DNA from: a virus
Direction: 5' to 3' (one strand)
Virus record (IMG/VR): IMGVR_UViG_3300046519_000214
Location: 1-64,000 of that record
Length of the DNA: 64,000 bases
Position numbers and translations under genes: made by a program. Shown piece by piece: positions 3,451 through 7,252 of the stretch. The notes beneath the pieces were generated by a model. That model ran no database searches and was not told the DNA's origin. It saw only the letters and a list, made by a program, of their open reading frames with translations. Each line of letters starts with the position of its first letter. The stretch's first letter is position 1.

Positions 3451-4314
3451 TTAGGAGCCGAAGTTGGAGACGACGTTCTGGCGAGCCTTCATGACCGACC
3501 GGATCAGTGTCTTGCGGACATTGGCGTCAGATAGCGTGTCCTTGTTGACGTAGACCTTGGCGAGCCAAGAGATGGTCGACTTGCCGCTGAACCAGCCCTG
3601 CAGCTTCGGGTAGGTGCCCGAGGGGATCTTGCTGTAGGTGTAGAGCGGCTTGCCCTGACTATCCGGAGCGTCGTCGAAGTCCTTGTCGTTGACACCGACG
3701 AGGACCAAGTTGTCGCTGTAAAGCTCGTCGGCCGACCGCATTACGGAGTTGATGAGAGCAGCCGGTACCAGTGCGCACGTCGTCTGGTCGTTGGCGACGG
3801 CCGAGAGTGCATCATCACCACTTTCGGCAGTGGGGCGGACGCCAGAGTAGTCGCTGTCCTCCGAGATGAAGTTCTGCCAAATCAACCAGGCGCCCGAGCC
3901 ACGCTCGCCAAGAGCGATCGAATACTTGGTCGCGTCGTTTTCGAGACCCCCGATGTCAGTAATGCCAGAATTTTTTCCGCAGACTGCGGTTGCATATTCA
4001 CGGTGAAGGTCAGCGATCGGCAGGAACTTGGCGGCGTTGGCCGGCTCGGTTCGCTTGAGGTAAGCAAGAGCATCGGGCTGGGCGATAATTGCATCGCACT
4101 TGCCTTGGAGAGAGAGCTGGACGTTGCCCCAGCTACCACCAGTATCTTTAACGACTTCGACATCCAGGCCGTTCCCCTTGGCTTCGTCCTTGATGAGTTC
4201 GCCAGCTGCGGCGTAGGGTTGATCCGCGGCGCCAGTGCAGAGGCGGATGGTTGCGGCATGAGCAGGCACAGAAATGAGCAGCGCCGCTATGGCGCCGAGG
4301 AAAAATTTCTTCAT
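3451..4314 (-). CDS. Secreted TAXI/TRAP-type periplasmic solute-binding protein
   Basis: A 287-aa protein. Residues 1-20 are a classic Sec signal peptide (MKKFFLGAIAALLISVPAHA) without a lipobox. The mature part looks like TAXI-family TRAP receptors: an early ligand-loop region (CTGAADQPYAAAGELIKDEA), a VEVVKDTGGSWGNVQLSLQG segment typical of the family, and an IAQPDAL strand. Such proteins capture small organic acids or amino acids in the periplasm for TRAP transporters; no TRAP membrane subunit is encoded here. The ATG at 4314 with SD AGGAGAT is preferred over an in-frame ATG at 4371. The palindrome GAGTTCTGAGAACTC lies 72 bp upstream, suggesting control by the phage regulator. It is unusual in a phage and was probably acquired from a host. 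Confidence 0.75.
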   Translation of the reverse strand: MKKFFLGAIAALLISVPAHAATIRLCTGAADQPYAAAGELIKDEAKGNGLDVEVVKDTGGSWGNVQLSLQGKCDAIIAQPDALAYLKRTEPANAAKFLPIADLHREYATAVCGKNSGITDIGGLENDATKYSIALGERGSGAWLIWQNFISEDSDYSGVRPTAESGDDALSAVANDQTTCALVPAALINSVMRSADELYSDNLVLVGVNDKDFDDAPDSQGKPLYTYSKIPSGTYPKLQGWFSGKSTISWLAKVYVNKDTLSDANVRKTLIRSVMKARQNVVSNFGS

Positions 4315-4717: not shown

Positions 4718-5078
4718 CGAGATCCTCCGTCACAACGTACCGACCCAGTCGGTACTTTCCGTTCCTGCTGTCCTGGCGAACGAACCAACCCTTCTCGGTC
4801 AGCTCGGGAAGGAGTTCGTTAATGGCGCGGAGGGCAATGAGCGCCCTCCCCGGTAGTGTTTCCCGGCGCCGCTGCTGTTCCTCGCGTTTGATCTCGCGAT
4901 GAACCATCTTCTGCAGATCGAGAATTTCGAACCAGGTTCGCTGTCCGCCACCCTTCCAACTCTTCACGAGAGGCCAGGTAATTGTCAGGAACTGCTCAGC
5001 GGTCGAAATACCATTGTTCCGCAGCAAGTTACCGGCTCGAACGCTCAATTCGAGCGTGTCGATGAAGGTGTTAGCCAT
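4710..5078 (-). CDS. RNA polymerase alpha C-terminal-domain-like protein
   Basis: A 122-aa protein. Residues about 6-52 match the alpha-CTD helix-hairpin-helix fold: TLELSVRAGNLLRNNGIST corresponds to the 'LELSVRxxNxLxxxGIxTxxxL' core that binds UP elements and activators, followed by a 'GGGQRTWFEI' segment in place of the usual GKKSLxEI turn. The C-terminal half is a basic helix (KMVHREIKREEQQRRRETL) and a small alpha/beta end. A free alpha-CTD could sit on promoters or host RNA polymerase and redirect transcription; that is inference. The ATG at 5078 has SD GAAGG; the upstream in-frame extension overlaps the previous gene and is discarded. Confidence 0.7.
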   Translation of the reverse strand: MANTFIDTLELSVRAGNLLRNNGISTAEQFLTITWPLVKSWKGGGQRTWFEILDLQKMVHREIKREEQQRRRETLPGRALIALRAINELLPELTEKGWFVRQDSRNGKYRLGRYVVTEDLDG

Positions 5079-5607
5079 AATGCCGACCTTCAGCCTGATC
5101 CTGCTGGCTCCTGACATGGAACAAGTCCTTGAGTGCCTTGTCGACGAAGTCTCGGAGTTGAGCACGGAGACCATCCTTGAGGTGGGCGGTCACTGTGACA
5201 GCTTCGGCTTTGAGAAGTTTGGAGAAATCCTCACCGCAAGCCTTGAGCATCACGTATTGAGCGCGGGTCATGGCTGAACTGTAGGAGTCTTTGGTCTCCT
5301 TGCCGTTACTGTCTACCTTCTTCTCCCAGTAACCAGAGACGGCGTCTTCGAGCTGCTTCCGGATCGTCGTGGCCTCCCCCTGTGGTTGGCCCCAGGAATC
5401 GACACGCCGGTACTCACGGTCGAATCCATCTTCGACCGCCTGGTCGATTGCTGCACGGATCCGCACTTCGGCCTGTTCTTTGAAGAGAGTGTCGATGCGG
5501 GATTTGAACTCGACGTCGATCTGGCGAGTGTAGTCGCGATTTTCGAGAAGGCGCTCCACCGCGCTTTCAACGATTGCCTTTTCAATTGCTGCCTGGTTTA
5601 GTTCCAT
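5071..5607 (-). CDS. Hypothetical helical protein (178 aa)
   Basis: Begins MELNQAAIEKAIVESAVERL and is almost entirely helical and charged, with a central conserved-looking segment (YRRVDSWGQPQGEATTIRKQ) and a C-terminal amphipathic helix (RDFVDKALKDLFHV). No family recognised. SD TTGGAGCC is 6 nt before the ATG at 5607. First gene of the unit that includes the alpha-CTD-like gene; it starts just after a terminator. Confidence 0.65.
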   Translation of the reverse strand: MELNQAAIEKAIVESAVERLLENRDYTRQIDVEFKSRIDTLFKEQAEVRIRAAIDQAVEDGFDREYRRVDSWGQPQGEATTIRKQLEDAVSGYWEKKVDSNGKETKDSYSSAMTRAQYVMLKACGEDFSKLLKAEAVTVTAHLKDGLRAQLRDFVDKALKDLFHVRSQQDQAEGRHYG

Positions 5608-5617
5608 TTTCGGCTCC

Positions 5618-5648
5618 AAAACAAAAAGCCCCGGCGGTTGCCAGGGCT
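5618..5648 (-). terminator. Rho-independent terminator
   Basis: Nine-bp stem AGCCCTGGC/GCCGGGGCT (one G-T wobble) with AACC loop, then TTTTTGTTTT on the minus strand. It ends the 7200-5823 operon. Nearly identical in sequence to the terminator at 7211-7240, so one is a copy of the other. Confidence 0.85.
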
Positions 5649-5666
5649 GTGAACGTTGATTATATT
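5638..5666 (+). promoter_or_regulatory. Sigma70-type promoter for a plus-strand small RNA
   Basis: TTGCCA at 5638-5643, a 17-nt spacer, then TATATT at 5661-5666. It points away from all neighbouring genes, which are on the minus strand, and is followed within 7 nt by a hairpin and then a plus-strand terminator. Confidence 0.65.
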
Positions 5667-5672
5667 GCTGGA

Positions 5673-5758
5673 GCAAGGGACAGGACCGAAATCCTGCCCC
5701 CCGCTCTTAGATTACGAAGACGACCCGCACATCAGCCTGCCAGCCTGTGCGGGTTTTT
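5673..5758 (+). ncRNA. Candidate small RNA (about 86 nt) ending in a Rho-independent terminator
   Basis: The predicted transcript starts about 7 nt after the TATATT box. It contains a compound hairpin at 5671-5706 (arms GAGC, GGG, CAGGA pairing with TCCTG, CCC, GCTC around a CCGAAA loop). A 16-nt linker that looks single-stranded (TTAGATTACGAAGACG) follows, then a 9-bp terminator stem ACCCGCACA/TGTGCGGGT at 5723-5754 followed by TTTTT. No open reading frame of note is present. It occupies an otherwise gene-free interval (5608-5822). The promoter-hairpin-linker-terminator order is that of a trans-acting sRNA; its target is unknown. Confidence 0.6.
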
Positions 5759-5760
5759 CG
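5723..5760 (+). terminator. Rho-independent terminator of the small RNA
   Basis: Nine-bp stem ACCCGCACA/TGTGCGGGT followed by TTTTTCG on the plus strand only; on the minus strand the hairpin is followed by CGTCTTCG, so it is directional. No plus-strand protein gene precedes it. Confidence 0.8.
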
Positions 5761-5822
5761 TATCGTAAGAGTGAGGTTGATGGGTAAGAACCACATCGCT
5801 CAACTCCAGTTTGAGGACCAGG

Positions 5823-6167
5823 CTATGCCCAGTCAGGAGAACCATTCTCCTGATGCACCTGGCAGGATGCGTCTGCTTCGGCCCCCAAAGACTCATGTGA
5901 CAGTTCTAGCTCATCCGGAGCCACGCTGTCGATGTACTCACTGTCCACCGACATATTTGTGGCTAGGCTCAGCTCCGGAAGCTCTGGATCGTCGAAGCTG
6001 CGTTCACTGACCGGTACACGGTCCTCGCCCACTTCGAACTCGTCGACTGGCATCTGCAGGCATTCATATCTGAGCTTGCGGAGCTTCTCGACTGCCTCTT
6101 CCGGCGTGGCCGCTCGGATGTAAGCCGTCGCCCAAACTTTCACGTCGATCGAATAGACGTTGGTCAT
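5823..6167 (-). CDS. Hypothetical acidic protein (114 aa)
   Basis: Starts MTNVYSIDVKVWATAYIRA and continues with a short helix (TPEEAVEKLRKLRYECLQM), the pattern of small phage proteins whose N terminus is a beta-alpha 'ATPEEAVEK' module; the C-terminal half is acidic and probably disordered. No function recognised. The ATG at 6167 overlaps the upstream TGA (ATGA). Last gene of a three-gene operon headed by the PP-loop enzyme. Confidence 0.6.
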   Translation of the reverse strand: MTNVYSIDVKVWATAYIRAATPEEAVEKLRKLRYECLQMPVDEFEVGEDRVPVSERSFDDPELPELSLATNMSVDSEYIDSVAPDELELSHESLGAEADASCQVHQENGSPDWA

Positions 6168-7210: not shown

Positions 7211-7240
7211 AAAGAAAAAGCCCCGGCGGTGGCCAGGGCT
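7211..7240 (-). terminator. Rho-independent terminator after the partition operon
   Basis: Stem AGCCCTGGC/GCCGGGGCT (one wobble) with 4-nt loop, followed on the minus strand by TTTTTCTTTT. Same hairpin as at 5618-5648 apart from the loop. Confidence 0.85.
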
Positions 7241-7252
7241 TGATTGAATGAC

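Follow-up and report, generated by a model that had tools for sequence, protein, structure and literature searches.

The window analyzed here is a stretch of 64,000 nucleotides within an 80,553-base IMG/VR virus record. It contains a single copy of an element that combines a very small gene on the minus strand with a predicted short RNA unit on the plus strand. The gene is a 29-codon ORF, MWFLPINLTLTIRKTRTGWQADVRVVFVI*, at positions 5707–5796 (minus strand), with homologs elsewhere and a Shine–Dalgarno sequence (SD) upstream. The ORF is unannotated, and its frame (5796–5707) was exposed by aligning 17 copies of the element. The minus-strand structure had been taken for a phage leader or a noncoding RNA, a reading that was dropped once this alignment revealed the 29 codons.

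The ORF appears to be under purifying selection in its own frame, pN/pS being 0.57 in the peptide frame, whereas the other frames give 0.84 and 1.56. Among 48 family members, the residues M1, P5, R16, and R24 are invariant, and all four proline codons occur at Pro5. The peptide has a net charge of +4.7, a GRAVY value of 0.27, and a hydrophobic moment of 0.41 at the β angle versus 0.15 at the helix angle; it is cationic and amphipathic at the β-strand angle and contains no classical hydrophobic transmembrane helix. TisB and IbsC are the toxin sequences with which it was compared. Searches of Pfam, NCBIfam, PADLOC, and the PDB gave no match to the peptide and PHROGs no significant one (best E 0.022), and none of the 48 family members matches Pfam, NCBIfam, or PHROG significantly. 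Decayed or read-through copies occur (L138 and L143). In the copy on Sinorhizobium medicae pMl1 (L020:3094–3185), the ORF is frameshifted while the remaining element is intact.

Downstream of the element, the peptide mRNA has an intrinsic terminator (AGCCCTGGCAACCGCCGGGGCT plus a T run; 5627–5648, minus strand), and the ribosome-binding site (RBS) of gene 5071–5607 (minus strand) comes next; the terminator is absent in the homologous locus L004. Near-identical terminator-plus-RBS cassettes, AGCCCTGGC[A/C]ACCGCCGGGGCTTTTT.TTTTGGAG, lie at 5627–5648 and 7218–7241 (minus strand), each directly before a different gene, and further copies are found 3′ of the element in L006, L007, and L014. Gene 5071–5607 belongs to phrog_14855 (function unknown), and its product shares 45% identity with a Pseudomonas phage protein that carries a GntR-family regulator label in one record. 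This gene was rejected as a partner of the element, as P0001 shows no relation to the gene located downstream in the Rhizobium phages. In Metarhizobium album (L014:1900–2010, minus strand), the downstream ORF stops within a few codons and adjoins an apparent IS transposase gene. Elsewhere in the window, a phage gene at 3451–4314 (minus strand) encodes a TAXI-type (TRAP transporter) solute-binding protein with a signal peptide, relatives of which occur in Agrobacterium, Sinorhizobium, and Vibrio phages.

Structure of the peptide mRNA

The region 5620–5770 folds with z = −7.6 on the minus strand versus −4.3 on the plus strand. The hairpin at 5671–5706 reaches −28.4 kcal/mol on the minus strand versus −17.1 kcal/mol on the plus strand, where the stem is interrupted. 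The minus strand folds better because its G-U pairs become A·C mismatches on the plus strand. On the mRNA, this hairpin follows directly after the stop codon (3′UTR; helix 8 of the structure model) and consists of 16 pairs closed by a UUCG loop. In L006 and L007, it is rebuilt by compensatory changes and carries GNRA or UUAG loops.

Directly upstream of the SD lies a structured 5′UTR (5810–5889, minus strand) with the shape of a four-way junction, made up of a closing helix and three hairpins with conserved loops. Part of it coincides with the 3′ end of ORF 5823–6167, which lies upstream, and its helices P2 and P3 show compensatory changes in all 12 pairs. An inverted repeat, CAACCCTGCATTCGTTG, is found upstream of the 5′UTR in five copies (L021, L052, L056, and L059) and may be an operator of one subfamily. 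An SOS-box-like site or a shared upstream operator was rejected, since this occurs at only three of 83 loci. Rfam (4227 families) gave no match above the gathering score for the window and six other loci; weak matches (Spot_42 with E = 0.08, and others) stayed under the gathering scores, were not repeated at other loci, and were discarded.

The SD, CUGGAG (5804–5809, minus strand, with GGAG at 5807–5804), pairs with an anti-SD, CUCCAG (5668–5673, minus strand), that is located past the stop codon and covaries with it. In the predicted fold of the window mRNA (z = −7.2), the CUGGAG:CUCCAG helix closes the ORF domain. A hand-named structure of 51 pairs has 83.5% paired cells across 48 full-length copies. 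Its covariation is 0.295 versus 0.164 in shuffled and at most 0.116 in slid controls; the homologs are related, so that the shuffled controls overstate independence, and the slid control, which keeps the relatedness, agrees. For the SD::anti-SD helix, own partners score 16.35 versus 14.77 for permuted partners, and none of 20,000 permutations scored as high. Partition-function folding of 78 loci predicts an SD accessibility of 0.27 in the full-length transcript versus 0.62 without the anti-SD, and for the window copy the two values are 0.03 and 0.55. In 11 of the 78 loci, predicted accessibility falls upon truncation. Scrambling only the 4-nt core of the anti-SD gives 0.36, a smaller effect than truncation. 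Covariation and predicted accessibility both point to a primary transcript rendered inert by SD occlusion.

Promoter, antisense RNA, and terminator on the plus strand

The earlier note had described a promoter on the plus strand, TTGCCA (5638–5643) and TATATT (5661–5666) with a spacing of 17 nt, and both the sequence and a consensus scan confirm it: the site scores 10 of 12 and is the top one of just four promoter-like matches in 12 kb. The predicted promoter (5638–5666) can also be read as GTTGCC-N17-TTATAT, which agrees in 9 of 12 positions with CTTGAN-N17-CTATAT, the type we take to be the alphaproteobacterial σ70 consensus. Across 83 nonredundant homologous loci that share the placement and spacing, at least 9 of 12 positions match this consensus in 67.5%, compared with 2.7% of shuffled sequences and 3.6% on the opposite strand. 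It is the most consistent of the regulatory signals predicted at the homologous loci. Loss of the promoter in L004, which has no TTGCCA, was considered and rejected, as the −35 element there is CTTGTA and the 17-nt spacing is kept. A sense-strand promoter is weak (12% of loci versus 5% of shuffles) and not clearly identified; a weak sense and a conserved antisense promoter are what would be expected with an excess of the antisense RNA.

The predicted antisense RNA, a putative antitoxin of ∼86 to 88 nt (5671–5758, plus strand; start placed from the promoter), extends from the anti-SD and 3′ hairpin halfway into the ORF, covering the 3′UTR hairpin and the last 17 codons. The sequence 5671–5760 folds with z = −5.8, a value equaled by none of 200 shuffles. 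The compound hairpin with GAGC, GGG, and CAGGA arms was found again at 5671–5706, and so was the 9-bp stem ACCCGCACA/TGTGCGGGT at 5723–5731/5746–5754 with TTTTT at 5754–5758. Comparison among homologs points to more than a chance arrangement and supports a conserved small-RNA unit equipped with promoter and terminator: the promoter keeps its position and spacing, and the stem of the terminator shows covariation. Missing conservation of promoter and hairpin in related phages had been named as grounds for giving up the unit; both proved to be conserved.

The intrinsic terminator of this RNA (5723–5758, plus strand; helix 7 of the structure model) is located inside peptide codons 13 to 25 (KTRT…VRV), and its stem coincides with codons 15 to 17 and 23 to 25. 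In 130 sequences, base 2 of codon 15 and base 1 of codon 25 form C-G (119), G-C (4), A-U (2), U-A (1), or no standard pair (4). By this pairing, Thr/Val, Ser/Leu, Asn/Phe, and Met/Ile switch jointly; as the terminator lies inside the codons of the putative toxin, two amino acids 10 residues apart would coevolve via RNA base pairing. The third bases of codons 16 and 23 are G-C in 93, C-G in 33, and A-U in two cases. The codons preceding the stem are A-rich, with Ile12 encoded by ATA in 26 of 29 and Arg13 never by CGC, and give rise to the U run of the antisense RNA.

Distribution of the family

Some 130 distinct homologs of the ORF turned up, nearly all of 28 to 29 residues. Their carriers are chromosomes and plasmids of Hyphomicrobiales as well as phages and gene-transfer-agent (GTA) clusters. 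A BLASTN search with L014, the copy from Metarhizobium, matched phages of Rhizobium and Ochrobactrum; among plasmids, it matched those of Sinorhizobium, Shinella, Roseibium, and others. The matched copies nearly always had no annotated feature. The peptide search yielded 44 plasmids and ∼14 phages, and a DNA-pattern search yielded 39 viral-contig stretches with the family. A match in Pseudomonas vlassakiae (L013) was set aside as a chance pattern match. Carriers number 87 of 398 sampled genomes in Rhizobiaceae, 14 of 398 in the order, and one of 385 in the class, rates that are not directly comparable, as the order and class searches used other queries and stricter cutoffs.

Related viral contigs keep the element with different genes upstream and downstream. 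Several viral contigs of 8 to 15 kb are GTA clusters (GTA_TIM, Rcc01698_C, DUF2460, and NlpC/P60), in which the copies, encoded on the opposite strand, separate the NlpC/P60 gene from a tail gene of the GTA_TIM/Rcc01698 type encoding 1260 aa. Rhizobiaceae GTA clusters carry one to three tandem copies (L114:8962–13533, L108:881–7673, and L119:619–5393). Tandem copies are frequent in general and are spaced by ∼310 to 400 bp. Between them, the 5′UTR is the most conserved part and, in four of seven pairs, the 3′ hairpin the least conserved one, which is consistent with, though no proof of, the 3′ hairpin setting antisense specificity.

A probable type I toxin–antitoxin-like module

The locus, whose architecture has good support, is probably a type I toxin–antitoxin-like module that consists of a toxic peptide and a cis-antisense RNA. 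The proposed mechanism builds on the conserved ORF, on the covarying SD and anti-SD, on the mRNA fold as predicted, and on an antisense promoter and terminator that are both conserved. The minus-strand mRNA, transcribed from ∼5890 to 5627, would carry the peptide ORF and be translationally inert at full length, its SD hidden by the anti-SD past the stop codon. Trimming of the 3′ end would remove the anti-SD and open the SD. The conserved σ70-type promoter at the 3′ end of the mRNA would drive a short plus-strand RNA that begins in the anti-SD/3′ hairpin and terminates inside the ORF. This RNA would pair with the mRNA, complementary hairpins first, with inactivation or decay as the outcome; herein, the mRNA 3′UTR hairpin is the putative target of the first hairpin of the antisense RNA. 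Since the antisense RNA covers the anti-SD itself, its effect would have to be duplex formation or decay, not direct masking of the SD. Most likely, the peptide would inhibit growth or be toxic, and the role of the module would most probably be the maintenance of, or competition between, mobile elements.

The earlier note had held that the promoter and terminator serve nothing else and had read the plus-strand RNA as a trans-acting phage small RNA or sponge. Its own promoter and terminator and its stable fold would suit such a role, yet a trans-acting RNA is encoded away from its target, and this one lies opposite a conserved ORF and its 3′UTR. A cis-encoded antisense regulator is a far simpler reading, because the RNA is fully antisense to the 3′ half and 3′UTR of a conserved mRNA (5796–5668, minus strand) and because the conservation of this mRNA extends to the promoter, terminator, and hairpin of the RNA. 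Both strands are co-conserved, and it is the minus strand that folds better and covaries. The 16-nt “unpaired linker” TTAGATTACGAAGACG, proposed as the seed, turned out to be the complement of the final codons of the peptide, GTC TTC GTA ATC TAA. Neither the trans-acting role nor the claim that the signals serve nothing else is upheld, and we consider a trans-acting RNA improbable. Slightly more doubtful still is a riboswitch-like leader or attenuator of gene 5071–5607. Structured RNA and a terminator do stand directly 5′ of the RBS of that gene, and the 5′UTR loop sequences are conserved; however, aptamers are placed upstream of functionally related genes, and the downstream genes vary among homologs and are unrelated, the terminator is absent in L004, and Rfam has no match. 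A riboswitch in the 5′UTR was rejected on a covariance model of this region only, all strong matches of which come with the peptide ORF, intact or decayed. That the RNA is purely noncoding and the ORF coincidental is scarcely credible: structure and covariation are very strong, but an ORF of fixed length with an SD is present in ∼130 sequences, proline codons of every kind stand at P5, the low pN/pS is confined to the peptide frame, and the other frames hold stops.

The most serious competitor, albeit an unlikely one, keeps the architecture and regards the peptide as nontoxic, that is, as an antisense-controlled regulatory or structural micropeptide such as a modulator of a host enzyme or of superinfection. 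A cationic, β-amphipathic peptide that is not membrane-helical would fit this, as would a frame and fixed length kept in phages, plasmids, and chromosomes. On the other hand, the silencing layers (long-range SD occlusion, an antisense RNA, and a strong antisense promoter), the tandem arrays, and the carriage on mobile elements are typical of addiction or toxin loci, and the few decayed or read-through copies hint weakly in the same direction, as this also occurs with toxins.

The toxin-like reading can be set beside known type I systems. The 28- to 29-residue ORF with its SD is in keeping with their small proteins (<60 aa, under translational control), and the predicted antisense RNA is likewise cis-encoded, has its own promoter, and is complementary to the putative toxin mRNA. 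Hok is a membrane-helical protein of ∼50 aa with an accompanying mok reading frame, and the 5′ leader is where Sok acts. For IsoA, the overlap is with the 5′ half of the mRNA. In txpA/RatA and bsrG/SR4 of Bacillus, a convergent antisense RNA covers the 3′ end of the toxin mRNA, and in ibs/sib and ldr/rdl of Escherichia coli, very small ORFs are arranged in tandem with an antisense RNA for each. The hok/sok loci of the plasmid R1 family resemble the present one in an mRNA that stays inert because its 3′ end pairs with the translation-initiation region (fbi/tac), in coupled covariations, in an antisense RNA, and in plasmid and prophage carriage. They differ in that the peptide here is cationic, β-amphipathic, and 29 aa long and that the antisense RNA lies opposite the 3′UTR and the 3′ half of the ORF; no sequence similarity to hok/sok was detected, and the peptide is not a Hok-like membrane-anchored toxin of ∼50 aa. 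The toxins of txpA/RatA and bsrG/SR4 are different transmembrane proteins of 38 to 59 aa, and those RNAs overlap at their 3′ ends, whereas the antisense terminator here lies inside the ORF. With ibs/sib and ldr/rdl, the family shares the tandem array of very small ORFs, but those are enterobacterial arrays of hydrophobic peptides without homology to it. An untranslatable primary transcript with long-distance 5′–3′ SD occlusion is a hallmark of type I loci (PMC6733600), which the long-range occlusion predicted here matches. The aapA/IsoA loci of Helicobacter and Campylobacter are alike in this SD/anti-SD occlusion, in the small toxic protein (toxicity being what we infer for the present peptide), in a cis-overlapping antisense RNA, and in multiple loci (PMC6733600); their peptide and bacterial class are different, and a four-way-junction 5′UTR of the present kind is lacking. 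We conclude that the locus would work like a type I toxin–antitoxin module and is a candidate member of that class.

The tiny peptides and RNA antitoxins of type I systems make them hard to detect. No rhizobial example was found in the literature searched, of which coverage is partial, and we know of no earlier type I addiction-module family of Hyphomicrobiales. Tentatively, and with rather less confidence than in the module itself, the elements may constitute such a new family, with a β-amphipathic cationic toxin and an antisense terminator in the toxin codons, that is spread by phages, conjugative plasmids, and GTA clusters. The family is unannotated nearly everywhere checked, despite its presence on many accessory plasmids, phages, and GTA clusters. 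With an RNA terminator set in coding sequence, the element would exemplify natural dual coding in a clean form. Provided that the peptide is toxic, it would be of an unusual toxin type, and the module would partly explain the stability of rhizobial mobile elements; within the genes of the GTA particle, it would then act as an addiction device.
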